Positions 7,513-58,828 of a DNA stretch of 64,000 nt are shown here, piece by piece. The notes under the pieces were generated by a model. That model was not told the origin of the DNA. It did not search any database and saw only the letters and a list, made by a program, of their open reading frames with translations. The first letter of the stretch is position 1. Every line of letters starts with the position of its first letter. Where the stretch lies: IMG/VR virus record IMGVR_UViG_3300025316_000590, positions 1 to 64,000 of that record. The stretch is one strand, 5' to 3'. A program made the translations under genes and the position numbers. The stretch comes from a virus.

Positions 7513-7642
7513 TCATACTTAGATCATTGTAAAATGAGAAAAGTAATGGTATCGCTAAGATTGCCCCAACCGTGTATTATGGAAGTCAATGCAGTTAAGC
7601 CCTTGCAGTGCTGCTGCGTCATATCGTATCATAGGTAACATC

Positions 7643-19365: not shown

Positions 19366-19593
19366 ATGAACGCTCATGATGAGATGGCAATTGAGGTGCG
19401 GGTTTTACTCGTGAAGACCGGAGACACGACCCTGGGTACGATCTCCCACAGGACGCACATATCATGCCCCGTGCTGATCCAGATGCTGGAGGCAAACAAG
19501 GAATCATTCTGGTTTCTGAGAAAGGCCCCAGCACGTGAATCCGACGTCGGGCTGACGTCGGTGGGTATGGCGAAAGCCTCGGAGGAACAATGA
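19366..19593 (+). CDS. Hypothetical 75-aa protein
   Basis: A short mixed alpha/beta protein (MNAHDEMAIEVRVLLVKTGD) with TGGAGG upstream and an ATGA overlap with the next large gene, so it is co-translated with it. No recognised domain. Confidence 0.6.
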   Translation: MNAHDEMAIEVRVLLVKTGDTTLGTISHRTHISCPVLIQMLEANKESFWFLRKAPARESDVGLTSVGMAKASEEQ

Positions 19594-22500: not shown

Positions 22501-24623
22501 CCCAGATCAAGGAGCAGACAGCAAAGTCAGACCTGCCCGACAAGGTGAAGGCCGCCCTGACAAAGGCCGCCGATGAGATGGGGCCGCTGACGCCCAAGTT
22601 CACACTGGGTATGCTGGGCGGCGAGATCAGCGACATCAAGTGGGACAGTGGGCACGTGCGAGTCGACCTGAAGGAAAGTGCCGAGGTGACCCGCCTGAAC
22701 AAGATGGGCGACTTCGGCCAGCGGCAGTTTGGCAAGTTTGCCGAGACCTATGGCGGCGACCCGAAGCAGTTCTCGTCTGATCTCAACTTCAAGTTCCGCA
22801 AGCCGCCGCCGGATGGACAGGTGATGCTGGAGACCCGCATCACGAAGTCCAGCGGCGAGGTGAAGGCCAATCTGGACGTCCCATTGGAACTGGGCGATCT
22901 GGCCGGGCATCCGTTCCACGGAAATCAGTGGACCGGGGGCGGTGGCAACGCAAAATTAGCACCGGACAACGGCGGAGGTGCGGGCGGGGCCGGCGGCGGT
23001 CGCCACCCCGCCTTCGCCAGTGTCAACGCACGCCAGATCATACGGTGGTGCGGCAAGGAAGGCATGAACGCAGCCGCAACAAAAGCGGCCCTGAACCGGG
23101 CCGGTATGGATGCTCCGCTGCCGACGATTCGAGCTGAACTACCCATTGGGGCGAGAGGCATTGGTCGCAAGGGCGAGCAGGCCCCTATCCACCCGTTTAC
23201 CGCTGATCAAAAGGCCGTTCTACGCGGCGGTGTGTACCGCACCGCACCGGGCCTCACGGACGCACAGGTAGCCCGTGCTGCCGAGTTCCAGGCCAAGGTC
23301 GGACAGCGAGCCCAACAGGCCCCAGCCGCCGCACCAAGCCCCAACGCTGCGGGCGTGGCAGCCGTGAACCGCATTATGGCTACACCGGCCCATGTGACGG
23401 CCACGGGGCAGGTAGGCTACAGCACCCGCAAGGACATCGCCGACCAGGCCGATGGGGAAATACGTGGTCTGCGGGCCAGGATCAACGCGGGTGATCGTAG
23501 TCAGGCGACTTACCGCGAGCGTGCCCTGGCCGGGCTGGCTGCCGCGAACGCTCACCGGGCTGCGGCGATGGCTGCGAACGACGCGGGCAACAACGCGGCG
23601 ATGATACAGCACATGGAACGGGCCAATCATCACGACACTCGTGCTCAATACTACAACTCGAAGCTGCCCGCTAACATGCGGGCTCAGGGTGGTGATGATG
23701 ACGTGCGGAACCGCGGCAACGCAATCGCTGCTAGGGCCGGGCACGCCAGTGCAGTTCCGCCGGCCCAGGCTGCGGCACCAGCACCCGCTGCACCTCCGCC
23801 GAAGACGCCGGCGGCGATTGCCGACGTTGAAAAGAAGCTCCAGTCCGATCCCATCACCGAATTAAAGAAGGTGGGTGGGACGCACATCAGTGACTGCTAC
23901 GCGGCAAAGAACGGTAAGAACATAGTTGGCTTCTACAAGCCGCAGAACGGCGAGTGCGGCTACCTGCGACCGGGTCAGACTGTGAATGATCTTCCTTACG
24001 ACCGCAAGGGGCAAGCCGCCCGCGCGTTCATTGCCCACGGGTTCACCGCAGGCCAGTGCTACAAGCGCGAGCTTGCTGCCTGGGAGGTGGCCAAGGCGGT
24101 CGGCATGACCGATATGGTTCCCGCCAGCCAGGAACGACACCACCCCGATCATGGCGTCGGTGTAATCATGGATAACGTGCCGGGCAAGGACGCGGGTGAT
24201 ATACTGATAGCAGCACAACGTAAGGGACTGGTGGCCCACATGCAGGCCCACGAGCAGGCTTACGACGGTATGCAAGATCAGCAGCGGGCTTTGATCTTTG
24301 ACTACATCATCCAGAACGTGGATCGACATCCGGGCAACTGGCGGTTGAAGCCGGACGGACGCATCGGTCTGATTGATCACGGCTTCAGTCTTCCGACGCA
24401 GGACTGCCATAGTCATTTCGCCCAGAACGACGCCTTCGCCCAGAACGTTGATCAGCACAAGAACATTCCAGCCGACGTCAAATCCGCCTGGAACGGCAAG
24501 TGGCCACAGATCGAAGCTGGCCTTAAAAAGTGCGGAATCGAGGATACGGCTATACATCTGGCTAAAAAACGCTACGATAAGTTGATGGCCGCGACGACCT
24601 TCAGGGACTTCATGCGAAGCTAG
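19590..24623 (+). CDS. Polyvalent cargo protein: HD phosphohydrolase and PI3/4-kinase-like domains
   Basis: A 1677-residue modular protein. Leader MIIDVPIILGD with signature copy 10 (9-21), a GFVRPDG module (about 50-130), an internal ribosome site and Met at residue 226 that begins again with MPVLEVPIILGD (copy 11), a GGPGSGNHGHSGRPGHRGG peptide (378-397), RWVTMHGSPVFI (about 661), an HD domain (about 800-930: HHIEGN, FHDAGY, IEHVIATHDA, RVADNLAL), copy 12 (1101-1113) with the KLAPDNGGG linker, an IRWCGKEGM module (about 1151), a Pro/Ala linker, and a C-terminal kinase-like domain (about 1420-1677) with NVDRHPGNW and GLIDHGFSLP, the catalytic and metal loops of PI3/4-kinase/HipA-like folds. 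Such domain strings fit the polyvalent proteins of phages; delivery into the host is inferred. Confidence 0.72.
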   Translation: MIIDVPIILGDTAGHEFRGNQYTGRSKQSDVRDTNAAWQKIMDMPTTDDSSKAGFVRPDGKYVNMNKGRPGCMNHADLFPRNPGRLQEIIANGMLRVDADFGIVEVGSKPTSEQRASLREFILDTMVSGKTIDLDLHSGLGKPFKDDPVTTTYRRPDGGVVKQFRSNPDDVMSSIDQFFSQPENHVRYQSPHKSFLSTDIPSWAASLGLQAETCHNGQQPQGAIIMPVLEVPIILGDVAGHPFRGNQHAPDPHGDVFDVGENPKFAGSMVNAKRMEREARRLHEAFQLHSDPSESDHHRIGDALIEAADAHRKAADAATYRVNYDKHHALADDLIGLAKDHAESAGDHEWPTKPGKLKDDSALVKPLTVSLNVDITLGGPGSGNHGHSGRPGHRGGSAPRDSGAGSSADIMTASDGKSEKAMDATRALSGHLNNDDKIDVDDMDYFREQARGRTGGRERVNLPESLDNISVIHDSLAEGHHTKEDAFRKDGKYDEANAHGTAAGLHEDAALEADKLAADLRGKTGLGDSKPTPKVKEVQPPVQSKRGHWSNEPLDRDTHPSVPYDEARAPGAKKPDGVSDARWAAIQQQIKNRGGKRDKTFREHHQFENYEDRPPNTYPVPPRFPDHVLSMDVDIILPGEATIHDAVDIKLSGTDDEDGRWVTMHGSPVFIKTGQSFDDAIKEHFKKNNVKTHAKKFKAEDYQQPNIGERVSAWKGKSVTERDRMANASVSIPKRIHEYVGDLPKAPNTGKLESDLHARVDQMKDRLTPEASVMIKKTLSDYSGNLTKAGVDDETARDLSMQAAEHLAAQEMEACTRQLGDHGIHHIEGNIRVGSQILDQIPGQGTAEQKAMLATAMIFHDAGYLTEPSRNFLDEGHPRWSAQHFRANIGNLTDKAFGTAATGQIEHVIATHDATDMNWESDPLGSASRVADNLALFSKEKLPPMYRYVPANEKTLEAFAEKKLSLEDARAQIKEQTAKSDLPDKVKAALTKAADEMGPLTPKFTLGMLGGEISDIKWDSGHVRVDLKESAEVTRLNKMGDFGQRQFGKFAETYGGDPKQFSSDLNFKFRKPPPDGQVMLETRITKSSGEVKANLDVPLELGDLAGHPFHGNQWTGGGGNAKLAPDNGGGAGGAGGGRHPAFASVNARQIIRWCGKEGMNAAATKAALNRAGMDAPLPTIRAELPIGARGIGRKGEQAPIHPFTADQKAVLRGGVYRTAPGLTDAQVARAAEFQAKVGQRAQQAPAAAPSPNAAGVAAVNRIMATPAHVTATGQVGYSTRKDIADQADGEIRGLRARINAGDRSQATYRERALAGLAAANAHRAAAMAANDAGNNAAMIQHMERANHHDTRAQYYNSKLPANMRAQGGDDDVRNRGNAIAARAGHASAVPPAQAAAPAPAAPPPKTPAAIADVEKKLQSDPITELKKVGGTHISDCYAAKNGKNIVGFYKPQNGECGYLRPGQTVNDLPYDRKGQAARAFIAHGFTAGQCYKRELAAWEVAKAVGMTDMVPASQERHHPDHGVGVIMDNVPGKDAGDILIAAQRKGLVAHMQAHEQAYDGMQDQQRALIFDYIIQNVDRHPGNWRLKPDGRIGLIDHGFSLPTQDCHSHFAQNDAFAQNVDQHKNIPADVKSAWNGKWPQIEAGLKKCGIEDTAIHLAKKRYDKLMAATTFRDFMRS
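19614..19652 (+). repeat. GHxFxGNQ signature copy 10
   Basis: Encodes LGDTAGHEFRGNQ, eight residues after the initiator Met, followed by YTG. Confidence 0.9.
20251..20267 (+). promoter_or_regulatory. Internal ribosome site and start codon
   Basis: AAGGAG, an 8-base spacer and in-frame ATG (Met 226). The sequence from this Met (MPVLEVPIILGD) copies the true N-terminus of the same gene, so this looks like the start of a formerly separate gene. Confidence 0.6.
20292..20330 (+). repeat. GHxFxGNQ signature copy 11
   Basis: Encodes LGDVAGHPFRGNQ, followed by HA. Confidence 0.9.
20721..20780 (+). repeat. GGPGSGNxGHxGRPG peptide signature
   Basis: A Gly-rich peptide preceded by NVDITL, sitting where a GHxFxGNQ copy would be expected. 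It is probably an alternative form of the same boundary element; I recall similar peptides in phage head-morphogenesis proteins. Confidence 0.75.
22890..22928 (+). repeat. GHxFxGNQ signature copy 12
   Basis: Encodes LGDLAGHPFHGNQ, preceded by NLDVPLE and followed by WTGGG and KLAPDNGGG. Confidence 0.9.
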
Positions 24624-24893: not shown

Positions 24894-27095
24894 ATGCCTA
24901 TTCAGTCATCCAACGGACCGCCCGTGCGGCGACGAATCAGCACACCCACGCCGGTAACCCGTCGCAGGATTCTCTCCCTGTCGCAGGGATTCGGCGATCC
25001 CAACATGAACATGCCTGACGGTCAGGTGCATGCTGCGGGCGTCGATATGTCGGGTAACCAGTACCCAGCAGGTGCCGGGCCTGGAACGCAGGGCAGTGCT
25101 TACTACTCGGGCAGCACAGGGCGTCGCTCCGATCAGCAGGCCCGCAGCCCGCAGGTCATTCAGGTGCAGGGGCAGGCCATGCCCCAGACGAACATGGTGC
25201 TGCAACCTGGCAGCCCGGAAGTTCTTACCCATGAACTGACCACCGGCCAGACCGGCATTATCTACGGCGTGCCCCAGGCCCCGATAGTGATGATCTCCGA
25301 CCCATCGGTGATCAACCTCTATCGCAAGTATTACACCACATACGAGGAGTATCGGAAGATCCGCAAGGATCCGACGATAGCCCTGTGCCGGGCAGTAATC
25401 GCCGCCCCGATTCTCAGTAGCACATGGCAGGTGAAGTCGAAGGAGGGTGTCGAGACCGAACGCGTGGCGTTCATCACGGACATGCTTGTGAAGCATCGCT
25501 TCCACATCATGGAGAAGGCCATTTATGGCATGATCGACTTCGGCTGGCAGGGATACGAGAAAGTGTTCGGTGTCGATATGTGGACGCCGCCTCCTGACCG
25601 GCCAGCATCGAAGGATGCGGATCAGCCGCAGATGCCAGCACCCGTGCCGCCGTCAGTTCCTGATGGCACGAGCAAGACCAATCTCCAGCTTGCGTTCGGC
25701 CAGCCTGACAGCAATGGTGCTGTCCCGACCAAGGTCGAACCACCCAAGGATCCGCCCAAGCCGAAGCCCAAGAAGATGGTCGTGCTGCGGAAAGTCAAAC
25801 CGCTGCTTCAGGACATGACCAGTATCATGGTCTACCTGTACACCGGCGACTTCGCCGGCTTCCGGCAGGGTATCGTGTTCGTCGAGGCTCCAGCCAAGGC
25901 GATGTTGATCAGCTACCGCGTGGAAGGCACGATGTGGCATGGCTATCCACTTCTGGAGCAGGCCCGCGAGACGGTCGAGAAGTGGGACAACGTCGAGATC
26001 GGTGCCCAGCGTTACGACATGAAGATTGCGGGCAGCCACTTCGTGGTTTACTATCCGATGGGCAGCAGCAACGTCAACGGTGCTCAGGTGAGCAACGCAT
26101 CCATCGCTAACGACATCATCAGGGGCTTGGAAGCGGGCGGCAGCATGTCGGTGCCGAATATTCTGGCCCAATACGTCGAAGGCATGGAAGCCGGCGGTGA
26201 AAACGCGAGTAGTGCCTGGAAGATTGACTTCTTAGAGGACCGCGGAGCCCGCCAGTCGAGCTTCGTTGATCGCTTGAAGTACCTCGACTCCCTGAAGTGC
26301 CGGGCGATGAACATTCCAGAGCGGGCCATCACCGAGGGTCAGTTCGGCACGAAGGCGGAGGCTCAAGGGCACGCCGATATCATGACGGTCATCCTGCAAA
26401 ACATGGATTTGCAGGTAACGCAAAGCGTCAATACTCAGGTTGTCGATCACCTTCTGGCCATGAACTACGGCAAGGATGCTGTGGGATCCGTGTGGTTGGA
26501 AAGCTCTCCGATCTCGGACGACCGCATCAGCTACGCCCGCAGTCTGTTCACGGCGATGCTTACAAACCAGCAGATGGGACCGGCCATCTTCCCGCACATC
26601 GATTTCTCGGCCCTCATGTCCGAGGTTGAGGTCCCCCTGAACAAGGGTGTGGTGCGGCAGGCCGGGCAGGCAGAAATCGGCCAGCTTGCTCCGGGTGGCC
26701 CGATGATAGCACCGCCGCCTGGATCGGGATCACCAGGGGCTGGCGGGGCCGCAGCCGGGGCGATTGCCCACACCGGCGTGTCGCCGCAGCAGCCCAACGG
26801 AAAGGCCGCACCAGGCCCCGCCACGAGCAATCCCCAGGCGGAAGCCGCGGCGAAGGAAGCAGCCGCACAGGCAGCGGATACGGCCCGCCAGAAGGCTTTG
26901 GCAAACCAGATGGGCCTACAGCCCGGTCAGCAGAAGACCATTCTCGACGTCATCCGACACATGCGGGCGTCGGGTGGCCTGCCACCGAAAGGCGTCACAG
27001 GCGAGAAGACGGGGGCACAGGCACTAGGCGTGCCCCAGGCCAGCCAAGCCCCGCCGCCTCGCGGGCGAAGCCTCACGAAGGGCAGCGGTGGCTAG
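24894..27095 (+). CDS. Portal protein (Mu gp29/DUF935-like)
   Basis: A 733-residue protein downstream of TerL. Its central part (about 130-570) has the portal features of Mu-type phages: ALCRAVIAAPILSSTWQVKS, YGMIDFGWQGYEKVF and a later AMNIPERAITEGQFGTKAEAQGH segment. Portal rings form the DNA entry vertex, bind terminase and join head to tail. The N-terminal tail contains DMSGNQYPAG, ending like the GHxFxGNQ signature. The C-terminus (about 580-733) is a long Ala/Pro/Gly-rich extension beyond usual portals. No signature-type enzyme domain. Family assignment rests on sequence pattern and context. Confidence 0.78.
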   Translation: MPIQSSNGPPVRRRISTPTPVTRRRILSLSQGFGDPNMNMPDGQVHAAGVDMSGNQYPAGAGPGTQGSAYYSGSTGRRSDQQARSPQVIQVQGQAMPQTNMVLQPGSPEVLTHELTTGQTGIIYGVPQAPIVMISDPSVINLYRKYYTTYEEYRKIRKDPTIALCRAVIAAPILSSTWQVKSKEGVETERVAFITDMLVKHRFHIMEKAIYGMIDFGWQGYEKVFGVDMWTPPPDRPASKDADQPQMPAPVPPSVPDGTSKTNLQLAFGQPDSNGAVPTKVEPPKDPPKPKPKKMVVLRKVKPLLQDMTSIMVYLYTGDFAGFRQGIVFVEAPAKAMLISYRVEGTMWHGYPLLEQARETVEKWDNVEIGAQRYDMKIAGSHFVVYYPMGSSNVNGAQVSNASIANDIIRGLEAGGSMSVPNILAQYVEGMEAGGENASSAWKIDFLEDRGARQSSFVDRLKYLDSLKCRAMNIPERAITEGQFGTKAEAQGHADIMTVILQNMDLQVTQSVNTQVVDHLLAMNYGKDAVGSVWLESSPISDDRISYARSLFTAMLTNQQMGPAIFPHIDFSALMSEVEVPLNKGVVRQAGQAEIGQLAPGGPMIAPPPGSGSPGAGGAAAGAIAHTGVSPQQPNGKAAPGPATSNPQAEAAAKEAAAQAADTARQKALANQMGLQPGQQKTILDVIRHMRASGGLPPKGVTGEKTGAQALGVPQASQAPPPRGRSLTKGSGG

Positions 27096-33365: not shown

Positions 33366-36300
33366 ATGATCATTGATATCCCGATCTTTCTCGGAGATGT
33401 GGAAGGCCATGCGTTCCACGGCAATCAGTGGACGGGCAATGCTAAACTGGCTCCCGATACGGGAGGTGGTGATGGCGGAATGACCGAAGTGGAAGAAGGC
33501 CACGATCAGACCATGCGGGGTGAGTTCTGGCTACAGGGATCCACGGCGATGTCGGCTGATGGTGATATCGATGATATGAACCACGAGGCGTACGCCATCC
33601 AGCAGGCACGAAGTGATCTTGCCGATTCCCTCGGTGTGGACTCCGACGATGATGATGCAGATACCATCATCGAAAAATATGCCGAGGATCATCCCGATGA
33701 AGCTGATATTCTGAGGGGTAGCGATTACAGTACGCCAGAGGCTAAAAAGCTATTCGAGGAAATCGGCTTGAGCCCTGATACCCTGTCGGTGGCACAGGGG
33801 TTCGGCGATTCCAGGTTGTGGGCGGCAGCAGAGCACGGATGGGTGCGGGTGGCTGGCAACAGCGTACAGACCGTGGGCATCGATAGCTCCAAGATGTCCG
33901 AGATCGCGGATGGGCTACATGATGCGTACGGTGAGGATGTGGAGACGCAGTCGTTCGATGTGGAGGTCGTTACTCATGACTCGGCTCGCCCCGGTATGGT
34001 GGTGAACTCGCACACGTACCGCGATGTGCCGTTTCAGGTGCTGGGCGAAGGAAATATGAGACGATTCTCTGAATACCGCGATGCCGCATTTTCTTTGTCT
34101 GGTGATACGCCGAAGCCTACTGGCGACAAAAACAATCGGGGCGAGTCTGGATACTGGATCACGACACATGGCGGCCACCACGTCTTTATCCTTGAAGGTG
34201 GATCTGGTATCGATGAGGATAAGCTAAAGGCCGCGGCAGCGACACTGCCGTCTACGCCTGGGTTTGGGACGGCACAGAGCCGTGCCGCGAGCCGGGCGGC
34301 AGGAAACGTCATCAGCGGGAACACGTACCGAGTCAAAGACCTCATTAGTCATTACGGCGGGCAGTGGGATGGTAAAACTAAAGACTGGGTCATGCCCAAC
34401 GCCGAAAGCACGAAGATGATGCGAGACGTGATGGCGGGCAAGTACAACGCCAGTACAGCATCACCCGCACCGCGTGTATCATCTCCAGCGGCAGCACCAC
34501 TTGTGATTCATGGTGCTACCTTCGGCATCAAGGACGTGATCAAGAGTGCCGGCGGTCGCTGGAATCCCAACGGGAAGAATTGGTTGATGCCAAACCAGGA
34601 AGCTGTCGAAAAGGTGCGTGATCATGTAACGAAGAACAGCATCAAGGGCGTGAATATGCCCGACGCCGCCAAGGAACCGGCACCGGCAGCGAAGCCGGAA
34701 GCAGACGCCGTGGAGGCAAGACAAGCGGTACGCGTGGCACGGGCGAATCGGGATGGGAAGGGTACGCTGTCGCGTGATGCTGAAAACGCAACAGATCATT
34801 CATCCCGACTGGACAACGTGGCCATGCAGAAGAAGACGCCGGAATCCCTGACCGCGGCCTTGGCTGCCACAGCAGACGCGGCGACGAAGCGGCGGGCGGC
34901 TGCCGATGCCATGATCGATCACAACAACCAGATATATCGGGATCATATTAACTGGGCCGAGACTCATGAACAGCGTAAGGCATCCCTGGAGCAGGAACTG
35001 CATCATCCAGAGGTAGCACAAGCTGCTGCTGCCGAAGCGGCACTCATTGCTAAACCCGTGGCGTGGAAATCGCATCGTGCGGGTGGCGACGTAACTGCAA
35101 GATCAGAAACGCAGCAAGGTTTCACGGTGCAAAGCCAGCGTGGTGAATATAGTGCTAGCCCGGATGAAGGTTATGTCGGCCAACTGCGTGGCTACCGCGT
35201 GTACTTCAAGGGTAGCGACGGGTCGCAGGAAAGTCTCGGTACTGTTTCAGACATGATCGGGGCATCGGGGATGGTCAACAAACATTTATCGAAGAACAAG
35301 GATCATACCCTGTCCTTGGAGGTTCCAATTGATATCGGTCGCGATGCGAGCTTCTTCGCTCCGGGCGTGCCAGTATCGTACAACGGTTTGGTTCAGCACG
35401 TCAGGGACCCGCAGGTTCAGAAGAATGCCGACAGAATCATTTCGGGCACGACCAACAAGCCACTGATACAGCGTAGGATCGAGAGCGACTCTGATCTAGC
35501 CCATATCTTTGGCGGCAAGATAGACTTGCCTACCGCACAGCACGCAGCCGACATTACGTGCGACGAGCTTAATCTGTTACGCCTGACTGTGAAATTTATG
35601 GTGGGCGACAGCGGCCTGACCAACGATGGATTCCAGCGGGTTGGTCATTACAAGAATGATACAGCACAGTTATGGGGAGCTGGGCAGACCATACCAGTTC
35701 TCCTGCATGAGATTGTGCATCATGTGATGACCCACAGCCCAGATTGTGAACCAGAGGATAGGCACAGTCCGCTATTTAACAGTACCTATTACAGGGTAGT
35801 CAATGCCTATCTACAGGCGATTGGTTCGACGGTTTGTCTGTCTCTCGATGTGCCTATTGAACTGGGGGACGTAGCGGGTCACGAGTTTCGTGGCAATCAG
35901 TACACTGTTGGAATAGCCAAAGACTATTTTCCCAAGGAGATGCATCCCAAGGGAATAGGTGAATCGTTTGTTCACACGACTACGGTTAAGGCGGGCAGTC
36001 GTGCAGAGGCGGCAAGTAAGTACTGGGCCGAACACGGTCCAAGTCATTTACCACGCATGATTCCCGAGGGTAGGCTGCCCAGGAAGGTCAGCGTTCACGT
36101 TAGCTCATCTGGATTTAAGCCTGGAATGGGCAGCGAGACCGGATCGGGACCGTCGCGTCTAATGCCGATTTTGGTACACGGACCTGGGGCTCCGCAACCG
36201 CTGGAACGTACGTTCAAGACCATGAAGCATGCGGCCAATGAACTGCAAGCGATCAGGAACGACTTTGCATCGGCGGCACACGATCCCATCGATCAGCTCA

Positions 36301-39300
36301 AGGCTCGTGTGGATGCAGTGGGCAAGTGGGCGGCTGGGCAGAAGAATACCAAGTTCATCGCCAAGCTGCTAGAGGAGGCCCACATGCTGCACGACAGGCT
36401 AAGTGGAGGCAGCGGCAAGGCTGGCATGCGTATCCAGATGAACCTCGACGATTCGCTTGAATTGGGTGACACTGTTGGGCACGAGTTCCGTGGGAACCAG
36501 TGGACAAAGCATCTTCTTGCCAAACTTCCAACGACGGACGATAAGTCTCAGTCTGGATTCATTCGCCCCGACGCCCAATTGGTAGATGTCGGGCACAGCG
36601 ATGCATTTGACGATGTCAAAACACACGCGGCGGCGGCTCTCGGGGAAGATGGTGTTTACGAGGACGAGCCTCGTGCCATGAACGCTCTGGCCAAGGCGAT
36701 GCATGTTGGGTTCATTCGTCATACGGGGAACGGAAGTTTTGAGATACACAAAGAGCCGACGGATAGCCAGTATCAGACTATTCAGGATATGGCAGAGGAT
36801 GCCGTGCAGCGAGGCTACCGAGCACGGGTTCAAATGTACGGAGCCAAAAATATACCATCGGGTGCCGCGGATAACGCATACGTCAGTGCGAACAGTGATG
36901 CTGAGGTCAGGGGTATATCAGATCGAGTTCGGATGTACTATCAAACTGGCAAGCAGCCGTACGTGTCGCCACTACGCCTTGGTGACGTTGCTGGTCACGA
37001 GTTTCACGGCAATCAGTGGACAAATCACGGACTGTCAAAGTTACCCACCACAGAAAATCAGGATGACGCCGGTTTCATTCGGCCAGATGCGAAGCTGATT
37101 GATATGGGTAGAAGCATCGGCTTCAAGTTCGACAAGAACGGTAGGGAATTAAAGGGTGGCCCTTTAACGCATCTAAAGGCGGCTGGTAGCCACAGTCAGC
37201 TAGATGTGGCATTCGCACATGGTTTCATTCGGTACTACCCAGAGCATCAATCTTTTGATATCCACAAGGAACCGAATGATGCACAGTACGAACGCATCGC
37301 GGCGATGGTGCATAAGCATGCTGCTGAAGATAAGGTATCCAACCTGGAACTATTTGATAGCAAGGGCGAGAGCACGTACATTGAGATAGAACCAGAAACC
37401 CCTGATTTGGCCGTGAGCAAGATAAGGTCGTTTTACTCAGGTGTTAAACCGTATGCGTCTCCGCTACGCCTCGGTGACGTAGCGGGCCATGAGTTTCATG
37501 GTAATCAGTGGACGGAGGGTGCGGCTCGCCTAGAGGTCGCTGCCATCAAGGCGAGTAAGGCCCGCGAGGCACTGGACGCCTTGATCACCGCGAAGGCCAG
37601 CCCGGAGGCCAAGGAACCGCTGGCCGCGGCGTGGCGGAAGGCACAGGACGAATACGCGGATATCCATCGCGAGGTGTCGAACATGCCACCGCAGCCGCCA
37701 CCGCCGTTGGGTAGCCTCACAGGCCCCGACGATGGCAGCCGGTTCGACGAACTGCGGAAGAACGGCCTGCTGGTGAAGAACGGTCGCCCGACTGGCACGC
37801 GAGACGTAGGGCCGGTCGATATCAAGGGATGGCGAGTCGGCAGCCGAGATGACAAGTACGGTCGTGGTGTGTTCTATGCATCGGACGATCAGGGGGCGAA
37901 AGCTTACGCATCCCTGCATCCAGGCGAGGAGGTCAAGGCTGATGATCTTCACCTCACCAATGTCCTCCTGGCCGGTCATCAGGACGACGTGAGCATGAAG
38001 CTCTTCGGCAAACACTACGGCGATATGATGGATGGCCTGGCTGCTCGCAACAAGAGCGAAGTTGTGGGTGGCCAGAAGTTCGATGTGAAACTTGCCAAAG
38101 AAGCGAAGAAGCGTGGTTACGACGCCATCATCTACACCGCACCTGCCCCGCCGGCTAGTGGTGAAATCGCCGTGTTGGGCAGCAAGAAGCGTGCAGCGAA
38201 GCTAAGCCTGGACGTACCGCTGGAACTGGCCCTAGTGACTTTCGACGATATCAAGGACGGGGGCCGGAACCGTGTGCAGCGGGACTTGGCACAGGCGGCT
38301 GCTGACACCGATACCGAAGCCTCCGAGGCTGCGAAGAAGGCCGGGACACTACTGATGTCGGTGCGTGTAGAGGGCATCGACCAACCTGTAGAATTCGGAT
38401 ATGGGCAGGGCATGCTTCATGATGTTGATTGCACCAGCACACAAAACGATGTTGCCCTTGACGTAGCCCTTAGCGGAGTCGATGCGGTCAACGGAAACAA
38501 TCATAGGGTTGATGCGTCGGTGTCCATGACGCCGTCTGGTTCCAACCTTACGGGCGTAAATCATGGGCAACCCTGTGTAGAAGCATGTGCCGTTTTGACT
38601 GTTCCAAAGGTCACGGATGTAATCGAAGTCGATATTGCACTTCCTATGCGTTTGGCGACATCGCAGGCGAACGTTGTCCATGACGGTACGAAGGGCGAAA
38701 TCGAGCGATTTGAACTTCCTGGTTTTGTAAGCAGCCTTAGCTCGCTTTCTGCATCCGTGACAGACACCCTCAAAACTCGTTCTGCCAGTCTTCAGCAGAA
38801 CTTTATTAAAACTTCCCACGGGAAAGTCGTCGCCACACCGCTTGCAGCGTTTTTGACCAGTACGGATGGCCTCGGCGGTGCGGTTTCTGGCACGAATCGA
38901 GCGTTGGTTGAACAGCGTCGAGTCGTCAATGAACCGACGAACATCGGAGGCAAACTTATCCGTGAAAAACATAATCTTCTGGTCGCATCGACCAGAAGTA
39001 CCGATAGGAAAATGAATAGTGTAGTCGATGCCAACGGTAGGCGACAGGGCTCGAACCACTGTACGCCGCCATCCATCGTAGCGGGTTGTGACCCTGCGTC
39101 CCGTGGCAGTCTTGATTTGCCGATAGAGATCGAACAGCGGTCGGGAATCGACGGGAAATCCAGAGTGGACAGTAGCAATTCGTCGTCGTATGATGACCAT
39201 ACTAAAACCTCCTTAGTAGGTTGCGGTCATGCCCCTGGTGTTTCCAGCACGCAGGGGCAACTTCTATGTTCTAGCATAAACACTGATGCTGATCAAGATG

Positions 39301-42300
39301 TTAGGCATCAACTAGCGAAAGCTGCATTGGAAACCGACCTTCATTCTAGTCCAGCACAGCAGCAGTCTGGATCATACAAGAAGGGCCGTGTCACCATAGC
39401 TGGACTGGGTATCGCCATCGAGAACCCGCACATGAGCACCCGCTGCGGTATCGGAGCGAATGGCCCGTGGTCTACCGTGATGAAGGGCGGGCACTACGGT
39501 TACATCTACAAGATCGACGGCAACTGGGCTCCGCGGAGCGAGGCTGATGGTGATCACATGGATATCTTCGTGGCCCCCGACATCGGGAATGGCCCGGAGA
39601 CCGATACAGTCTACGTCATCGACCAGACCAAGGTGGGTTCCCCCGGCGAGTTCGACGAGGCCAAGGCCATGTTCGGCTATCCCAACGCCGACGCCGCAGT
39701 GAAGGCGTACTTCGACAGCTACAGCCCCGGCTGGGCGAACGTAGCCGACATGGTACAGATACCTCTGGGTCAATTTAAAGCGTGGGTGGAGTCGGGGAAG
39801 ACTGCCGAGCCCGCGGGCCTGCTGAAAAATGGAACTGCGGTTACGTTATCCCACGACGAGGACGAAGAGGATGATGATGACGATACGATTGTGGAGCCCA
39901 ACGTTCTGGGCGGGCATAACTACCGCAAGCAAGATGGCCGCACCGCCTCGACTCGCAGAAACGTGTTCGGCGGCGAGTCCCAGGTGGGCGACGGTGACTT
40001 CGAGACCCGGCCCGGTGTGGGCGGCACGAAGCACGTCAGTGGCCATCTGAAGTTCAGCACGGACGTACCGCTGGAGCTTGGCGATGTCGAGGGCCATGCC
40101 TTCCACGGCAACCAGTGGACGCAGTCGCCCTTGGCGAAGCTGCCCACGACCACGGATACTAAATCAGCCGGCTTCATCCGACCTGACGGGAAGCTCGTCG
40201 ACCTGAACCGCAACAAGCGTGAGGGTTACTTGAGCCACAGCAACGCCGCCGAGGGAAACCTGCACCAAGAGCTTGCCCGCAACGGGTTCATTCGCTGGTC
40301 GCCTGACGGATACAAACTGGACATCCGGTCCGAGCCTACCGACGAGCAGTACGCGGCCATCTCCGATATTATTGCGAAACACCACAAACCCGTAGACCTG
40401 GAGATGGGCGACCAGACCGGCAAGGCCGATGTGGGATCGTGGGAGAACGGTGTGGCCGCGGTCAAGAAGCTGAAGGACTGGTCGTCGAATGGTGCCCTGT
40501 CTACGGCAATTGCCGCCAGCCTTGAGTCAATCTACGCTGCCCGTGATGAACTGGCACTGAGCGACGTATCATTCAAAACATTCAGCCCAACGCAGGAGAA
40601 GCTGCCAATGGGTAACTACGATTACGAATATAACCATCCGCTGTGCAAGAAGCACAACTATCGTCACAGCCGCAGGGGCATGGGGTGCCCGTATTGCCGA
40701 GATGATGGCAGCCAGCCTTGGTGTAGTGCGTGTGGTGAAGGTATCCCGCTAGGCGAGGTAAAGCAGGACGAGCCGCATACACATGACGTGCATAAGACGT
40801 GTGCGGGTAAGCACCTGACCGCTCTGGAAAAACTACGGCCATTGATGGATTACGAAACGCAGTGGGAGAAAGCCAAAATGCCAGAAACCAAACCACAGCA
40901 GGGCGGGATGCTCGCCATGTTCTCACGCGATGATCGGCAGGCTATCCGTTTGTCCCGTCGCAAGAAGAAAAAGGAATTGGTCAAGTTCACCGAGGAGACT
41001 GCACCACTACAGGCCCGTGCCTTGCTCCACTCCCTGGCCATGCGATTGATTGCCTGCCGCGACGCCGGTTGGAACCGCCAGCAAATCTACACCGAGCTTG
41101 GCCGGTACTATAACTCGCAGGTCGCCGATATCTGGGACGCCGCCGAAAACCAGGAGGTGAAGCGGATGGTCGTTCAGGGCGAGATTGCAGCCTCGCTGGA
41201 GAAGACCGTGAAGTGCCTGGACTGTGATCAGGACTGCGACGAGAACGGCAAGTGCCCGAAGTGCGGTGGGGCAGTGAATGTGTTCACGGGTAACGCGTTC
41301 GGTCTATCAGCGGACGTCATCACGGCGTTCCGAGACCTGTTCGATGCCTACCTGAAAGGTGATGTTGTCCTCGGCGACCTGCCTGGGCATACGTTCCACG
41401 GTAACCAGTACGGTGGCCTGCCGGTGTACGATAAGCAGCCTTGGGGCGACGCCTGGCAGAAGCGTATGGCCCGCAGCGGTCTTGATCCTACCAAGGTGAA
41501 AACCGTTCTGGTCAAATCTTCATCGGGAGGCCGACCGCACTACTCCAAGATGCTGGCTCATCCTACCGAGCCGAGGAAGGCGTGGGTGGGTGAAGCGGGC
41601 AACGTCCACGAGGAGGTAGTTCCGCACCATAACGTGTATCATGCGAATTCGCAGGGGAACGTGGTTCTCCTTGGGCCAAAGCCAGATCATGAACTCAAGT
41701 TTGTGGAGGATGGTAACGTGACCGCATCATTAGATATTCCGCTGGAACTGCACATGGCAACCGGCAAACGTGATGAAACCATCGGCATCGACTTCGATGG
41801 TACGCTGGTCAAACGGCTGGATGGCCCGTACAACCCCGCCGCCCACGGCGACCCCATCGACGAACGCTGGGACGAGGTGCGTGCCGCCCTCGACGCGGGT
41901 AAGCAGGTGGTGATTTTTACGGCCCGCGTGGCAAACGATCCGAACAGCATCGCCCGCGGAGCCATCGAAGACCTGTGCATGGAGGAACTGGGGCAGGTAC
42001 TTCCGATCACCAACGAGAAGACCCCGAACATGATCAGAATCATCGACGACCGAGCCACGGGCGTGACTCCGGACGGTACGGACATGCCCAGCTTGGCTGC
42101 GTCCCTCGATATTCCTCTGGTGCTTGGCGATACCCCAGGCCACGAATTCCACGGAAATCAATGGACAGGAGGAGGCGGTGCAGCTCAGGGTGCAGCCAAC
42201 GCAGTCGCGTCAGGCGATGCGGCGATGCTTGTGCGGATGGGTCAGCCCCACCCAGCCTTCACCAACTTCAAGCAGCCCATGCGGAAGCTCCTGCGGTGGT

Positions 42301-43751
42301 GTGGCCGGGAGGGCATGAACCTCCAGCAGGCCAAGAACGCCCTGAACCGTGCTGGGCTTAAAGTGCCGCCGGATCCAACTATTCGGGCAGAACTGCCCAT
42401 CGGAGCCCGCGGCCTCACACGCGGCGGGCGTGGGGCCGACATGCCCAACCTGACCGACGAGCAGAAGGCTATTCTGCGTGGCCGCATTGGGGGCACCGAC
42501 CCCGGCGTGGCTGGCCGCCAAGCCGCCGCAGCCGCTGAGTGGCAGAAGCAGCAGGCTGCCAAACCCGCCCCAGCAGCCAAAGCACCCGCCGCAGCCCCAG
42601 CCGCTCCGCCGGCCCAGAAGTATGCTGATCATAAGGATCGAGCCGACCGGGCCGATGCTGCCGAACGTGTTGTTCGAGATCGTATCATCAGAGGGGAACG
42701 TGGGGCGGGTGTGTATCGTGATCGTGCTGTGGCCTGCCTGGCAGCGGCAAAGATTCATGACGACGCGGCGGCAGCCGCCCGTGCGGAAGGGAAGAACACC
42801 GAAGAGTCGCAGCACGGCCATAGGGCCGATGAGCACGAGGTCAAGGCCGCGAAATACAACGACAAACTCGACGCGGCGAACAAGGTCACCGACCAGCACC
42901 CAGACGTCAAGAACGCTGTGAAGTCCATCGACGACGCGATGGCCGCGACGCGGAACCAGCCCGCTCAACCGGCACAGGTATCGATCACCCCCGCCGACAA
43001 GGTCAAGCGGGAAGGTGAACTAGCCAGCACCCCGGCCAAGAAGATCGGGGATATCCCCGGCGTGGATAAGTGGAACCACGTCAGCCAGACATTCCTAATC
43101 ACGGATCAGGACGGCAAGAAGCACGTGTTCAAGCCCGTCAACGGCGAGGCTGACTACTCGGGCGTGTGGTACGAAAGCTCGGGTTCAGGGCCTGGAGCCC
43201 GCCGCGAAGCCGCCGCGTACAGCATGGCCAAGTGCGTAGGCATGACCGACATCGTGCCGGTGACGGTTATGCGTAACCAGCCGAAAATTAAATCAGAAGG
43301 CGGGGAGACCGTGTCTGGTACTGGTAGTGCCCAGGACTTCTGCGACGGCTGTAAGACGGCACGCAAGTCGGCCAATGCCTGGGACGGGGAGAAGGATGCA
43401 GCCCGCTGTGCGGCGTTCGATTACGTCATGGGCCTGACCGACCGGCATCAGAACAACTGGCTGATTGACAAGGACGGAGCGGACGACGGCAAAATACACC
43501 TCATCGACCACGGCTACTCCCTGCCAGACGTCGATAAGTCCCTCGACGACCGCGGGTTCCTCGGACACGCCAGCCAAAACCGTACTCCGATCTCTGATGA
43601 GATCAAGTCGGCGTGGCGAGGCAAGTGGGGTGACATTGAGGTGGCCCTGAAGAAGCTGGACATCGGGCCGAAAGCCATCGAGAAGTGCAAGGCCCGCTAT
43701 GATAACCTCCTGCGTGCTAAAAACTTCCGAGAAATCAGCCTGCGGGCTTGA
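33366..43751 (+). CDS. Giant polyvalent cargo protein (about 3461 aa)
   Basis: The start chosen is the ATG at 33366, giving leader MIIDIPIFLGD plus signature; an in-frame TTG at 33339 is unlikely. Domains in order: signature 13, YWITTHGGHHVFI (about 262), two VKDxIxxxGGxW repeats (318-345, 382-408), a zinc metallopeptidase-like domain with HEIVHH (about 781), signatures 14-17 with two GFIRPDA modules, an ADP-ribosyltransferase-like domain (about 1475-1610: GWRVGSRDDKYGRGVFYAS, GYDAIIY), a segment opposite an antisense HNH gene (1662-1945), an inorganic-pyrophosphatase-like domain (about 1987-2142: GHYGYIYKIDG, DGDHMDIFVAPD), signature 18 and a third GFIRPDG module, cysteine-rich zinc modules (2419-2488, 2617-2634), signature 19, a HAD-like domain (IGIDFDGTLV about 2805), signature 20, an RWCGREGM module (about 2974) and a PI3/4-kinase-like domain (GLTDRHQNNW about 3359). 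This matches the polyvalent proteins described for phages. Whether it is one chain, cleaved, or started internally is open. Confidence 0.72.
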   Translation: MIIDIPIFLGDVEGHAFHGNQWTGNAKLAPDTGGGDGGMTEVEEGHDQTMRGEFWLQGSTAMSADGDIDDMNHEAYAIQQARSDLADSLGVDSDDDDADTIIEKYAEDHPDEADILRGSDYSTPEAKKLFEEIGLSPDTLSVAQGFGDSRLWAAAEHGWVRVAGNSVQTVGIDSSKMSEIADGLHDAYGEDVETQSFDVEVVTHDSARPGMVVNSHTYRDVPFQVLGEGNMRRFSEYRDAAFSLSGDTPKPTGDKNNRGESGYWITTHGGHHVFILEGGSGIDEDKLKAAAATLPSTPGFGTAQSRAASRAAGNVISGNTYRVKDLISHYGGQWDGKTKDWVMPNAESTKMMRDVMAGKYNASTASPAPRVSSPAAAPLVIHGATFGIKDVIKSAGGRWNPNGKNWLMPNQEAVEKVRDHVTKNSIKGVNMPDAAKEPAPAAKPEADAVEARQAVRVARANRDGKGTLSRDAENATDHSSRLDNVAMQKKTPESLTAALAATADAATKRRAAADAMIDHNNQIYRDHINWAETHEQRKASLEQELHHPEVAQAAAAEAALIAKPVAWKSHRAGGDVTARSETQQGFTVQSQRGEYSASPDEGYVGQLRGYRVYFKGSDGSQESLGTVSDMIGASGMVNKHLSKNKDHTLSLEVPIDIGRDASFFAPGVPVSYNGLVQHVRDPQVQKNADRIISGTTNKPLIQRRIESDSDLAHIFGGKIDLPTAQHAADITCDELNLLRLTVKFMVGDSGLTNDGFQRVGHYKNDTAQLWGAGQTIPVLLHEIVHHVMTHSPDCEPEDRHSPLFNSTYYRVVNAYLQAIGSTVCLSLDVPIELGDVAGHEFRGNQYTVGIAKDYFPKEMHPKGIGESFVHTTTVKAGSRAEAASKYWAEHGPSHLPRMIPEGRLPRKVSVHVSSSGFKPGMGSETGSGPSRLMPILVHGPGAPQPLERTFKTMKHAANELQAIRNDFASAAHDPIDQLKARVDAVGKWAAGQKNTKFIAKLLEEAHMLHDRLSGGSGKAGMRIQMNLDDSLELGDTVGHEFRGNQWTKHLLAKLPTTDDKSQSGFIRPDAQLVDVGHSDAFDDVKTHAAAALGEDGVYEDEPRAMNALAKAMHVGFIRHTGNGSFEIHKEPTDSQYQTIQDMAEDAVQRGYRARVQMYGAKNIPSGAADNAYVSANSDAEVRGISDRVRMYYQTGKQPYVSPLRLGDVAGHEFHGNQWTNHGLSKLPTTENQDDAGFIRPDAKLIDMGRSIGFKFDKNGRELKGGPLTHLKAAGSHSQLDVAFAHGFIRYYPEHQSFDIHKEPNDAQYERIAAMVHKHAAEDKVSNLELFDSKGESTYIEIEPETPDLAVSKIRSFYSGVKPYASPLRLGDVAGHEFHGNQWTEGAARLEVAAIKASKAREALDALITAKASPEAKEPLAAAWRKAQDEYADIHREVSNMPPQPPPPLGSLTGPDDGSRFDELRKNGLLVKNGRPTGTRDVGPVDIKGWRVGSRDDKYGRGVFYASDDQGAKAYASLHPGEEVKADDLHLTNVLLAGHQDDVSMKLFGKHYGDMMDGLAARNKSEVVGGQKFDVKLAKEAKKRGYDAIIYTAPAPPASGEIAVLGSKKRAAKLSLDVPLELALVTFDDIKDGGRNRVQRDLAQAAADTDTEASEAAKKAGTLLMSVRVEGIDQPVEFGYGQGMLHDVDCTSTQNDVALDVALSGVDAVNGNNHRVDASVSMTPSGSNLTGVNHGQPCVEACAVLTVPKVTDVIEVDIALPMRLATSQANVVHDGTKGEIERFELPGFVSSLSSLSASVTDTLKTRSASLQQNFIKTSHGKVVATPLAAFLTSTDGLGGAVSGTNRALVEQRRVVNEPTNIGGKLIREKHNLLVASTRSTDRKMNSVVDANGRRQGSNHCTPPSIVAGCDPASRGSLDLPIEIEQRSGIDGKSRVDSSNSSSYDDHTKTSLVGCGHAPGVSSTQGQLLCSSINTDADQDVRHQLAKAALETDLHSSPAQQQSGSYKKGRVTIAGLGIAIENPHMSTRCGIGANGPWSTVMKGGHYGYIYKIDGNWAPRSEADGDHMDIFVAPDIGNGPETDTVYVIDQTKVGSPGEFDEAKAMFGYPNADAAVKAYFDSYSPGWANVADMVQIPLGQFKAWVESGKTAEPAGLLKNGTAVTLSHDEDEEDDDDDTIVEPNVLGGHNYRKQDGRTASTRRNVFGGESQVGDGDFETRPGVGGTKHVSGHLKFSTDVPLELGDVEGHAFHGNQWTQSPLAKLPTTTDTKSAGFIRPDGKLVDLNRNKREGYLSHSNAAEGNLHQELARNGFIRWSPDGYKLDIRSEPTDEQYAAISDIIAKHHKPVDLEMGDQTGKADVGSWENGVAAVKKLKDWSSNGALSTAIAASLESIYAARDELALSDVSFKTFSPTQEKLPMGNYDYEYNHPLCKKHNYRHSRRGMGCPYCRDDGSQPWCSACGEGIPLGEVKQDEPHTHDVHKTCAGKHLTALEKLRPLMDYETQWEKAKMPETKPQQGGMLAMFSRDDRQAIRLSRRKKKKELVKFTEETAPLQARALLHSLAMRLIACRDAGWNRQQIYTELGRYYNSQVADIWDAAENQEVKRMVVQGEIAASLEKTVKCLDCDQDCDENGKCPKCGGAVNVFTGNAFGLSADVITAFRDLFDAYLKGDVVLGDLPGHTFHGNQYGGLPVYDKQPWGDAWQKRMARSGLDPTKVKTVLVKSSSGGRPHYSKMLAHPTEPRKAWVGEAGNVHEEVVPHHNVYHANSQGNVVLLGPKPDHELKFVEDGNVTASLDIPLELHMATGKRDETIGIDFDGTLVKRLDGPYNPAAHGDPIDERWDEVRAALDAGKQVVIFTARVANDPNSIARGAIEDLCMEELGQVLPITNEKTPNMIRIIDDRATGVTPDGTDMPSLAASLDIPLVLGDTPGHEFHGNQWTGGGGAAQGAANAVASGDAAMLVRMGQPHPAFTNFKQPMRKLLRWCGREGMNLQQAKNALNRAGLKVPPDPTIRAELPIGARGLTRGGRGADMPNLTDEQKAILRGRIGGTDPGVAGRQAAAAAEWQKQQAAKPAPAAKAPAAAPAAPPAQKYADHKDRADRADAAERVVRDRIIRGERGAGVYRDRAVACLAAAKIHDDAAAAARAEGKNTEESQHGHRADEHEVKAAKYNDKLDAANKVTDQHPDVKNAVKSIDDAMAATRNQPAQPAQVSITPADKVKREGELASTPAKKIGDIPGVDKWNHVSQTFLITDQDGKKHVFKPVNGEADYSGVWYESSGSGPGARREAAAYSMAKCVGMTDIVPVTVMRNQPKIKSEGGETVSGTGSAQDFCDGCKTARKSANAWDGEKDAARCAAFDYVMGLTDRHQNNWLIDKDGADDGKIHLIDHGYSLPDVDKSLDDRGFLGHASQNRTPISDEIKSAWRGKWGDIEVALKKLDIGPKAIEKCKARYDNLLRAKNFREISLRA
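33390..33428 (+). repeat. GHxFxGNQ signature copy 13
   Basis: Encodes LGDVEGHAFHGNQ near the N-terminus, followed by WTGN and KLAPDTGGG. Confidence 0.9.
35862..35900 (+). repeat. GHxFxGNQ signature copy 14
   Basis: Encodes LGDVAGHEFRGNQ, preceded by SLDVPIE, just after the metallopeptidase-like domain. Confidence 0.9.
36462..36500 (+). repeat. GHxFxGNQ signature copy 15
   Basis: Encodes LGDTVGHEFRGNQ, followed by WT and a GFIRPDA module. Confidence 0.9.
36978..37016 (+). repeat. GHxFxGNQ signature copy 16
   Basis: Encodes LGDVAGHEFHGNQ, followed by WT and a GFIRPDA module. Confidence 0.9.
37470..37508 (+). repeat. GHxFxGNQ signature copy 17
   Basis: Encodes LGDVAGHEFHGNQ, preceded by ASPLR exactly as in copy 16 (VSPLR), and leads into the ADP-ribosyltransferase-like domain. 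Confidence 0.9.
38349..39200 (-). CDS. HNH homing endonuclease, antisense inside the giant gene
   Basis: A 283-residue protein with its own ribosome site: on the minus strand AAGGAGG stands 7 bases before the ATG. It has zinc-finger-like CKRCGDDFPVGSF and CHGC (about 119-150), then LWNSQNGTCFYTGLPM and SVDRIDSAKGYVKGNIVLC, the HNH metal-binding pattern of phage homing endonucleases, ending in helices. Its codons are exactly in register with the codons of the giant plus-strand frame, and it uses no TTA, CTA or TCA codon, which leaves that frame open across the whole gene. It is inserted at the start of the pyrophosphatase-like domain. Confidence 0.85.
   Translation of the reverse strand: MVIIRRRIATVHSGFPVDSRPLFDLYRQIKTATGRRVTTRYDGWRRTVVRALSPTVGIDYTIHFPIGTSGRCDQKIMFFTDKFASDVRRFIDDSTLFNQRSIRARNRTAEAIRTGQKRCKRCGDDFPVGSFNKVLLKTGRTSFEGVCHGCRKRAKAAYKTRKFKSLDFALRTVMDNVRLRCRQTHRKCNIDFDYIRDLWNSQNGTCFYTGLPMIYARKVGTRRRHGHRRINPMIVSVDRIDSAKGYVKGNIVLCAGAINIMKHALPISEFYRLVDALYTHRHQ
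39230..39259. repeat. Perfect 8-bp hairpin upstream of the HNH gene
   Basis: TGCCCCTG and CAGGGGCA with a 14-base loop, 30 bases from the HNH start. It lies in the leader of the minus-strand HNH message and inside the plus-strand giant frame; it may insulate or regulate the HNH gene. Confidence 0.5.
40077..40115 (+). repeat. GHxFxGNQ signature copy 18
   Basis: Encodes LGDVEGHAFHGNQ, preceded by STDVPLE, followed by WT and a GFIRPDG module. Confidence 0.9.
40594..40610 (+). promoter_or_regulatory. Internal ribosome site and start codon
   Basis: AGGAG, a 9-base spacer and an in-frame ATG (Met 2415) at the beginning of a cysteine-rich zinc module. Relic or working internal start. Confidence 0.45.
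41370..41408 (+). repeat. GHxFxGNQ signature copy 19
   Basis: Encodes LGDLPGHTFHGNQ, followed by YGG. Confidence 0.9.
42123..42161 (+). repeat. GHxFxGNQ signature copy 20
   Basis: Encodes LGDTPGHEFHGNQ, preceded by SLDIPLV, followed by WTGGGG, leading into the RWCG-kinase unit. Confidence 0.9.
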
Positions 43752-44688: not shown

Positions 44689-44763
44689 GGGGGCGTGGGC
44701 TAATTGGTAAGTCACCAGCATTCTAAAGCTGTCGAGATGATGGTTCGATTCCGTCCGTCCTTA
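44689..44763 (+). tRNA. tRNA-like sequence with an 8-base anticodon loop
   Basis: Folds as a cloverleaf: acceptor GGGGGCG with CGTCCTT (three G-T pairs), D arm GGC-TAATTGGTAA-GTC with the GG of the D loop, and T arm GATGG-TTCGATT-CCGTC. The anticodon stem is CAGC/GCTG (only four good pairs) and leaves an 8-base loop ATTCTAAA, so the anticodon could be TCT (Arg) or CTA (an amber suppressor). No CCA is encoded. It may be a functional but unusual tRNA or a decayed one. Confidence 0.6.
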
Positions 44764-52499: not shown

Positions 52500-53261
52500 G
52501 TGGACGTTGCAATCACAGGATCACGAGGGTTTATTGGTGGACACCTGATGCGGTGTTTCCCATCGGCAACGCCTATTTATCACGACACACCGCTGAGCAC
52601 GATCAATGCCGACGTCATAATCAACTGCGGGTGGCCGACGTCTTCGCAACTGTATCATGATGAACAGTATCAGGAGCAGGGCGTGCTGTTCTTACGTAAC
52701 CTGCTGGCCTCGGTCAACTGTCGCAAGTTCATAGGTGTCGGCAGCCAGTCCGAGGTTTACCGCAGCGATACGGTTCATGCAAAGATACGGGAAAAGGCCC
52801 GCAGTGAGGCGAGTACCGAGTGTCGACGTCGCGGCATCGACTTCGCCTGGATGAGGGTGTTCAGCGTCTACGGGACGGGTGATACATCGGTTCGATTCAT
52901 ACCGTACATCATTGACGAGCTTCTTCACGGTCGCGTACCCGTACTATCGAACTGCGAATTGATGTGGGACTTTTTGCACGTAAGCGATGCCGCCTCGGCT
53001 TTCGTTAAAGTGGCGACGTGCGGAGCGACTGGTGTTTTTGACGTAGGAAGTGGCACGCCGGTTAGAATGCGGGATGTGGCCATTATGATTCGGGATATGA
53101 TTGATCCCACATTACGTCTTGAATTTGGGCGGCGTCCCGTTAAGTCTTACGATTTGAAATCAACGCAAGCGGATACTCAGCGTCTGCGTGACCTGGGATG
53201 GAAACCCGAGATTGATATTCATTACGGGCTACGGATGTTGATTGAGGAGACGCGTAAATGA
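52500..53261 (+). CDS. NDP-sugar SDR (epimerase/reductase-like) with changed active site
   Basis: A 253-residue extended short-chain dehydrogenase starting with GTG. GSRGFIGGHL is the NAD(P)-binding loop, VGSQSEVY the serine strand and MWDFLHVSDAASAF the usual C-terminal segment. The catalytic YxxxK reads KIREK, so the tyrosine is replaced by lysine while the lysine and following glutamate are kept. It would be expected to reduce or epimerise the CDP-keto-sugar, but the missing tyrosine raises doubt. ATGA overlap with the next gene. Confidence 0.7.
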   Translation: MDVAITGSRGFIGGHLMRCFPSATPIYHDTPLSTINADVIINCGWPTSSQLYHDEQYQEQGVLFLRNLLASVNCRKFIGVGSQSEVYRSDTVHAKIREKARSEASTECRRRGIDFAWMRVFSVYGTGDTSVRFIPYIIDELLHGRVPVLSNCELMWDFLHVSDAASAFVKVATCGATGVFDVGSGTPVRMRDVAIMIRDMIDPTLRLEFGRRPVKSYDLKSTQADTQRLRDLGWKPEIDIHYGLRMLIEETRK

Positions 53262-57313: not shown

Positions 57314-57315
57314 TT

Positions 57316-57990: not shown

Positions 57991-57992
57991 CC

Positions 57993-58826: not shown

Positions 58827-58828
58827 GC

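Follow-up and report, generated by a model that had tools for sequence, protein, structure and literature searches.

A recurring GHxFxGNQ label ahead of most modules of a 3461-residue phage polyprotein, a candidate signal for capsid loading

The window analysed here, 64,000 nucleotides in all, is part of a linear viral record of 192,133 bases (IMG/VR record IMGVR_UViG_3300025316_000590) in which assembly errors are possible. On its + strand, positions 33366-43751 form an uninterrupted frame of 3461 codons with a product of 3461 aa; random sequence of the same composition would stay open over 3461 codons with a probability of about 1e-59. The original prediction had described a single frame of this length, and the frame is indeed open throughout, with every quoted motif in place: HEIVHH (residue 781), GWRVGS (1488), GVFYAS (1501), GYDAIIY (1584), GHYGYIYKIDG (2042), DGDHMDIFVAP (2061), IGIDFDGTLV (2806), and GLTDRHQNNW (3356). 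The terminase gene and a Mu-type portal gene (24894-27095) both lie upstream of it. A short peptide, GHxFxGNQ, called the label below, recurs in the frame and in several of its neighbours.

3733-7512, + strand: labelled ORF, 1259 aa, with three labels and one RDxxGRF-type signature at 4819
7589-8338, + strand: stand-alone labelled ORF, 249 aa
9909-11537, + strand: labelled ORF, 542 aa, with two labels
11556-12077, + strand: stand-alone labelled ORF, 173 aa, with the label close to the N-terminus
12087-14549, + strand: labelled ORF, 820 aa, with two labels and an RDxxGRW-type signature at 12165 near the N-terminus
16570-19335, + strand: large terminase subunit, interrupted by an intein
19590-24623, + strand: second labelled polyprotein, 1677 aa, with three labels, one GGPGSGN-type signature at 20721, and FIRPD and kinase modules
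33366-43751, + strand: putative polyvalent cargo polyprotein, 3461 aa (open frame and profile matches)

The intein of the terminase carries a LAGLIDADG domain (Pfam intein splicing, E=7e-17). Downstream of the polyprotein gene, at 44689-44763 (+ strand), is a tRNA-like gene to which ARAGORN gave a two-base anticodon and no identity; Rfam scores it as a tRNA. From 52500 to 63998, a run of genes on the + strand matches nucleotide-sugar epimerase, aminotransferase, and methyltransferase families, which suggests a phage-borne sugar or glycan pathway. When the 3461-aa ORF and its halves were compared with 50,697 phage records as DNA and as protein, matches were confined to the InPase region, and queries with the portal or the kinase found no close relative of this phage.

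Within the polyprotein, the labels, leaders, and modules are arranged as follows.

33405-33428, + strand: label 1, GHAFHGNQ, 13 residues from the N-terminus, after the leader MIIDIPIFLGD
34083-34763, + strand: DUF5710-like repeats
35313-35873, + strand: metallopeptidase-like module with HEIVHH at 35706-35723 (sequence only)
35877-35900, + strand: label 2, GHEFRGNQ
36477-36500, + strand: label 3, followed by FIRPD module 1
36993-37016, + strand: label 4, followed by FIRPD module 2
37485-37508, + strand: label 5, ahead of the ADP-ribosyltransferase-like (ART-like) module
37668-38201, + strand: ART-like module, with 32% identity to a module that another phage has directly after the same label in a MuF-type protein
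38205-38237, + strand: leader SLDVPLEL without GHxFxGNQ, ahead of the first copy of the InPase N-terminus
38259-38348, + strand: first copy of the InPase N-terminus, interrupted
38349-39200, - strand: HNH/endonuclease VII-like gene of 283 codons, antisense within the polyprotein frame (PHROG 3322, E=8e-23; PHROG 1035, E=1e-21)
39108-39134, + strand: leader-like SLDLPIEIE in the polyprotein frame, ahead of the second InPase copy
39297-39791, + strand: InPase module with complete N-terminus, Pfam match to PF18823 at 39354-39791 (residues 1997-2142, E=1.3e-34)
40092-40115, + strand: label 6, followed by FIRPD module 3 (FIRPDGK at 40173-40193)
41385-41408, + strand: label 7, GHTFHGNQ
41727-41951, + strand: leader SLDIPLEL without GHxFxGNQ, followed by the HAD phosphatase module (residues 2796-2862; PHROG 1238, E=2e-6; TIGR01662, E=0.008)
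42138-42161, + strand: label 8, GHEFHGNQ
42963-43748, + strand: PI3K/HipA-like kinase module with a PI3/PI4-kinase-like catalytic motif at residues 3344-3389 (PF00454, E=1.3e-8, and 2e-9 for the module alone); a copy lies in the ORF at 19590

Five enzymatic domains had been named for this chain, on the understanding that at least three should find profile support. Three did, InPase, the kinase, and the HAD phosphatase, so that the proposal passed narrowly; the ADP-ribosyltransferase and the metallopeptidase had no profile support. For the ART-like module, no ART profile or fold match of significance was obtained, the predicted structure had a pLDDT of 49 with no significant Foldseek match, a PDB sequence search was of no help, and the profile-profile comparison with the ART-PolyVal-like modules of the loci was too weak to count. 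The metallopeptidase-like module has HEIVHH and a plausible third ligand; profile, PDB, and fold searches gave no support, and its predicted structure had a pLDDT of 34 with no significant Foldseek match. The proposed structure prediction per segment, run on these two modules, thus supported neither, and their identities, read from motifs, are suggestive. The DUF5710-like region and the N-terminal part of SNF2-helicase proteins from other label-bearing phages are related. The FIRPD-type module is present in three copies in the 3461-aa ORF and in one in the 1677-aa ORF, and the kinase modules of the two ORFs are 36% identical, which indicates that the two polyproteins share parts. The placement among phage polyvalent proteins was borne out: with InPase, kinase, and HAD the chain holds at least three unrelated enzymatic domains, where two or more disparate activities per chain characterise the family, and the gene is located among virion structural genes, with terminase and portal upstream.

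Codon preference in the polyprotein frame falls to about zero over codons 1650-1990 (about 340 codons). A further domain was considered for this stretch and rejected, as it has no coding signal and lies antisense to the HNH gene, which has its own Shine-Dalgarno site (AAGGAGG, 39208-39214) upstream of the ATG. The original prediction had overlooked this gene. No known RNA element was found in the insert; within the window, Rfam gives only the tRNA at 44689. Copies of the InPase N-terminus, diverged and differently coded, flank the insert at codons 1634 and 1978. The presence of a copy on each side indicates that the insertion struck the InPase region and that an intact InPase remains.

The HNH codons are in exact register with those of the polyprotein, so the big frame can be open only if the HNH gene is free of TTA, CTA, and TCA. 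It contains none of them, despite 15 Leu and 14 Ser, and together they make up 44 of 1195 codons across six further endonuclease-like genes of this phage. Under the usage of those six, an HNH gene free of antisense stops has a chance of 2.5e-5, and under the general codon usage of the phage one of 0.014; both values are somewhat flattering because the frame was picked for its length. This codon usage suggests that selection may keep the big frame open across the HNH gene. The two halves of the polyprotein could instead be separate genes by now, the frame over the HNH gene being open by chance; the missing coding signal over codons 1650-1990 and the chance of 0.014 speak for such a split, which we nevertheless regard as rather unlikely given the value of 2.5e-5 and the lack, on the + strand between 38349 and 39400, of any in-frame start with a Shine-Dalgarno site.

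The HNH protein has an N-terminal RRRI motif that is common to about a dozen genes of this phage. About a dozen genes with no relation to one another start with M(P)ERRR[IM]xT or xxxRRRI, among them the portal and several homing endonucleases (for example at 32174 (+), 39200 (-), and 24924 (+)); this N-terminal peptide may serve as another type of label or as a translation signal.

GHxFxGNQ occurs eight times in the 3461-aa ORF and 20 times in the window, always on the + strand and in seven ORFs. All 20 copies lie within 5.3-42.2 kb, around the terminase and portal, and the rest of the 192,133-base record is free of it. Scans of IMG/VR, pooled and deduplicated, gave at least 433 copies in at least 281 ORFs, almost all of uncultured phages, from contigs that are partly redundant, with the first Met taken as the start codon, and from loci retrieved through the label itself, so that the sample is not independent of it. 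The label recurs across many phages, on stand-alone proteins as well as in chains. Its consensus in a subset of 245 copies is [KL]GD[VL][PA]GH[EPA]F[HR]GNQ[WY]TxGG, with GHxFxGNQ as the core; H, F, N, Q, and W/Y are strongly conserved, the flanks are variable, and the downstream side is Gly-rich. The invariant residues are encoded by varying synonymous codons, so it is the peptide that is under selection, and conservation at the DNA level was rejected for the same reason. Ahead of the label stands a hydrophobic leader, SLD[VI]P[LI]EL in this phage, and leaders are more similar within a phage than between phages (none of 500 shuffles reached the observed similarity). In stand-alone labelled proteins the N-terminus before GHxFxGNQ reads, for example, MDFRNILRLVTKGD, MPIDDEIVNWILLAKGD, or MIIDIPIFLGD.

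The strict pattern had no match in a 257-gigabase set of bacterial and archaeal sequence, where a looser pattern found 11 stretches; labelled genes are present in Hydromonas duriensis, Ideonella livida, and Akkermansia-related contigs. In cultured phages, tblastn with the bare label (queries of 26-28 residues) gave no useful match and some that look like chance, and such short Gly-rich queries may be beyond the reach of the method. No label was present in the inspected sequences of five cultured phages that encode relatives of the MuF or InPase domains, so the label is apparently not needed for head proteins generally. On this evidence it would be mainly a feature of uncultured phages. Three Akkermansia-related contigs (L133, L135, and L136) encode portal-like proteins with the label about 160 residues before the C-terminus, which indicates that it is present in prophages too.

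Among the matches listed, 139 of 256 ORFs have their first label no more than 45 residues from the first Met, when 51 would be expected from uniform placement and the maximum in 1000 trials was 71. Labels are rare at the other end: among the matches listed, 8 of 249 ORFs have the last one within 70 residues of the C-terminus, against 55.5 expected. The N-terminal bias and the avoidance of the C-terminus together indicate that the label stands ahead of something. Capsid-targeting sequences occupy the first 10-30 residues of their cargo, and we count the excess of 139 ORFs over 51 as agreeing with that position. Where an ORF has several labels, they are mostly 130-430 residues apart, the length of one or two domains.

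Modules were compared in 605 homologous pairs from different ORFs with less than 70% identity. Of the pairs that could be tested, 24 of 249 were also homologous in the preceding module and 4 of 111 in the following one, and stand-alone labelled proteins have homologues within fusions (81 and 106 pairs). The shuffled neighbours and these homologues indicate that the unit that moves is the labelled module. The idea that GHxFxGNQ divides the chain is thereby strongly supported and can be sharpened to an N-terminal label of the module. It does not hold for every boundary: the metallopeptidase-like, InPase, and HAD modules are preceded by a leader only (SLEVPIDIG for the first) without GHxFxGNQ.

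Shuffling of the modules on either side would also be seen if the label were a neutral linker or recombination joint, spread by module recombination at that place. We judge this very unlikely, in view of invariant residues that are kept while their codons vary freely, of stand-alone proteins that begin with the label though they have nothing to join, and of the avoidance of C-termini. It is unlikely, too, that the label is a processing site only, cut by the head maturation protease or by the metallopeptidase-like module of the polyprotein, the cut releasing modules and trimming the N-termini of single proteins while targeting resides elsewhere. The N-terminal position and the Gly-rich stretch after the label would suit a cleavage site, the T4 propeptides double as targeting sequence and cleavage site (PMC9026906), and DdrB and DarA of P1 are processed (PMC5512222). 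However, the 32 label-bearing records searched, with a method of low sensitivity, have no protease in common (S78 in 2, DUF2213 in 3, Mu_I in 3, S49 in none), and the same not very sensitive search found none of these four head-protease families in this phage. Phage-specific leaders with a shared core also fit a binding site at least as well.

The domain census compared 71 labelled ORFs with 110 unlabelled ORFs from the same loci. Among the labelled ones were matches to Phage_Mu_F (9), Phage_portal_3 (5), Portal_Mu (1), and Phage_portal (1), and to ADPrib_exo_Tox (5), ART-PolyVal (4), InPase (3), Acb1 (3), kinase (3), and topoisomerase IB (2). Common among the unlabelled ones were methyltransferases, terminase, portal, helicase, primase, head protease, and major head protein. 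Portals thus occur in both groups; in the labelled portals inspected, the label is C-terminal, ahead of an extra 100-300 residues, and the portal and terminase of this phage have no label. One labelled protein of 1456 aa (L060:4099-8466) joins GNAT, topoisomerase IB, the anti-CBASS Acb1, and a MuF-like head domain, a fusion that suggests delivery of Acb1 from the head. The strongly conserved H, F, N, Q, and W/Y could also point to a small folded element, such as one binding DNA or metal, to which the label belongs and which aids its module in the host cell rather than in entering the head. The variable flanks and the Gly-rich downstream side argue against a fold, and the label is also found on portals and MuF proteins, whose place of action is the particle; we find this reading highly doubtful.

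Other short signatures stand at places equivalent to those of GHxFxGNQ. LGG[PA]GSGNFGHAGRPG was found nine times at such places, and [DN]P[DN]QxRDExGR[FW] likewise occupies them; the looser RDxxGRF pattern gave 21 matches, a few of them probably by chance. Several of these alternative signatures share ORFs with GHxFxGNQ, and in this phage they are confined to 4819, 12165, 15142, and 20721, all in the same region. They may be interchangeable with GHxFxGNQ.

On balance we favour, with some reserve, the view that the 3461-aa ORF is a phage-head cargo polyprotein and that the label is a modular capsid-loading signal repeated before its modules. The layout of the T4 and P1 targeting sequences, the pattern of the leaders, and the homology between InPase and a portal domain (both comparisons are given below) speak for a capsid-loading label, and leaders specific to each phage are expected if each phage has its own reader. 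The ORF, three of its domains, the statistics of the label, its association with head proteins, and the shuffling of modules are shown; what we infer is packaging, a label reader, injection, and cleavage, which would work together as follows. The polyprotein would be a string of separately evolved modules, including pyrophosphatase, HAD phosphatase, PI3K/HipA-like kinase, and, probably, ADP-ribosyltransferase and metallopeptidase modules. A hydrophobic leader, followed by [L/K]GDxxGHxFxGNQ[WY]TxGG, stands before most of them. During head assembly the label would be read, most likely by a component of the head interior such as the scaffold, the shell lining, or the portal complex, and the reading would load the attached module into the capsid. 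The loaded module would then be ejected with the DNA, as happens to the internal proteins of T4 and probably to DarB of P1. A label shared by stand-alone proteins, portals, and MuF proteins would let modules swap carriers by recombination, and cleavage at or near the label, which would free the modules, is plausible. More tentatively, GHxFxGNQ and the interchangeable GGPGSGNFGHAGRPG and NPDQxRDExGRF could form a transferable packaging code of unrelated phages, read during capsid assembly, that makes any enzyme module head cargo, alone or chained.

How polyvalent proteins enter heads and how their mismatched domains are parcelled out have been standing questions since these proteins were described. 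A label that precedes the modules would put such questions within reach of a single reporter construct and a single proteomics run. If the proposal is true, a scan for the label lists candidate injected early effectors from sequence alone, including the anti-defence Acb1, and provides short peptides with which proteins of choice could be brought into phage particles.

Polyvalent proteins, capsid-targeting sequences, and MuF fusions are known. The polyvalent proteins described by Iyer et al. 2017 (PMC5512222) likewise combine many unrelated enzymatic domains in a chain, InPase and kinase included, are likewise coded near head genes, and are thought to be packaged and injected; that paper proposes processing by their metallopeptidase domains. 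A zincin-like metallopeptidase domain is common in them and not required; the 3461-aa ORF has the HEIVHH motif, for which profile, PDB, and fold searches gave no support. Unlike the published cases, the 3461-aa ORF has an antisense endonuclease gene within it, and only part of the known polyvalent repertoire. It also differs in the recurring label between modules, on which PMC5512222 is silent and of which we found no published account (subscription journals and preprints lay outside the scope). The MuF polymorphic toxins (Jamet et al. 2017, PMC5576092) likewise consist of a head protein domain with exchangeable effector modules. In contrast, a profile search found no Phage_Mu_F match in the 3461-aa ORF; in the label-bearing relatives, where such matches were found, MuF is one module among several and the fusion partners are labelled.

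The InPase module is homologous to the C-terminal domain of the portal of Pseudomonas phage Pa193 (gp19, PDB 9b41, E=6.5e-18). There InPase is on the head-facing, C-terminal side of the portal itself, whereas here it is in a separate polyprotein; in the Pa193 virion, portal residues 529-765, after the C-terminal barrel, have no density (PMC11042391). The closest parallel in layout is with the capsid-targeting sequences of T4 and P1, which load proteins including anti-restriction proteins: the T4 internal proteins are packaged through N-terminal propeptides of 10-19 residues (PMC9026906) and DarB of P1 through its first 30 residues (PMC9024508), and the stand-alone labelled proteins share this arrangement. 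The T4 and P1 sequences are single N-terminal copies specific to one phage group, whereas the label, whose role in targeting is putative, is repeated inside chains and has a 14-residue core common to many phages.
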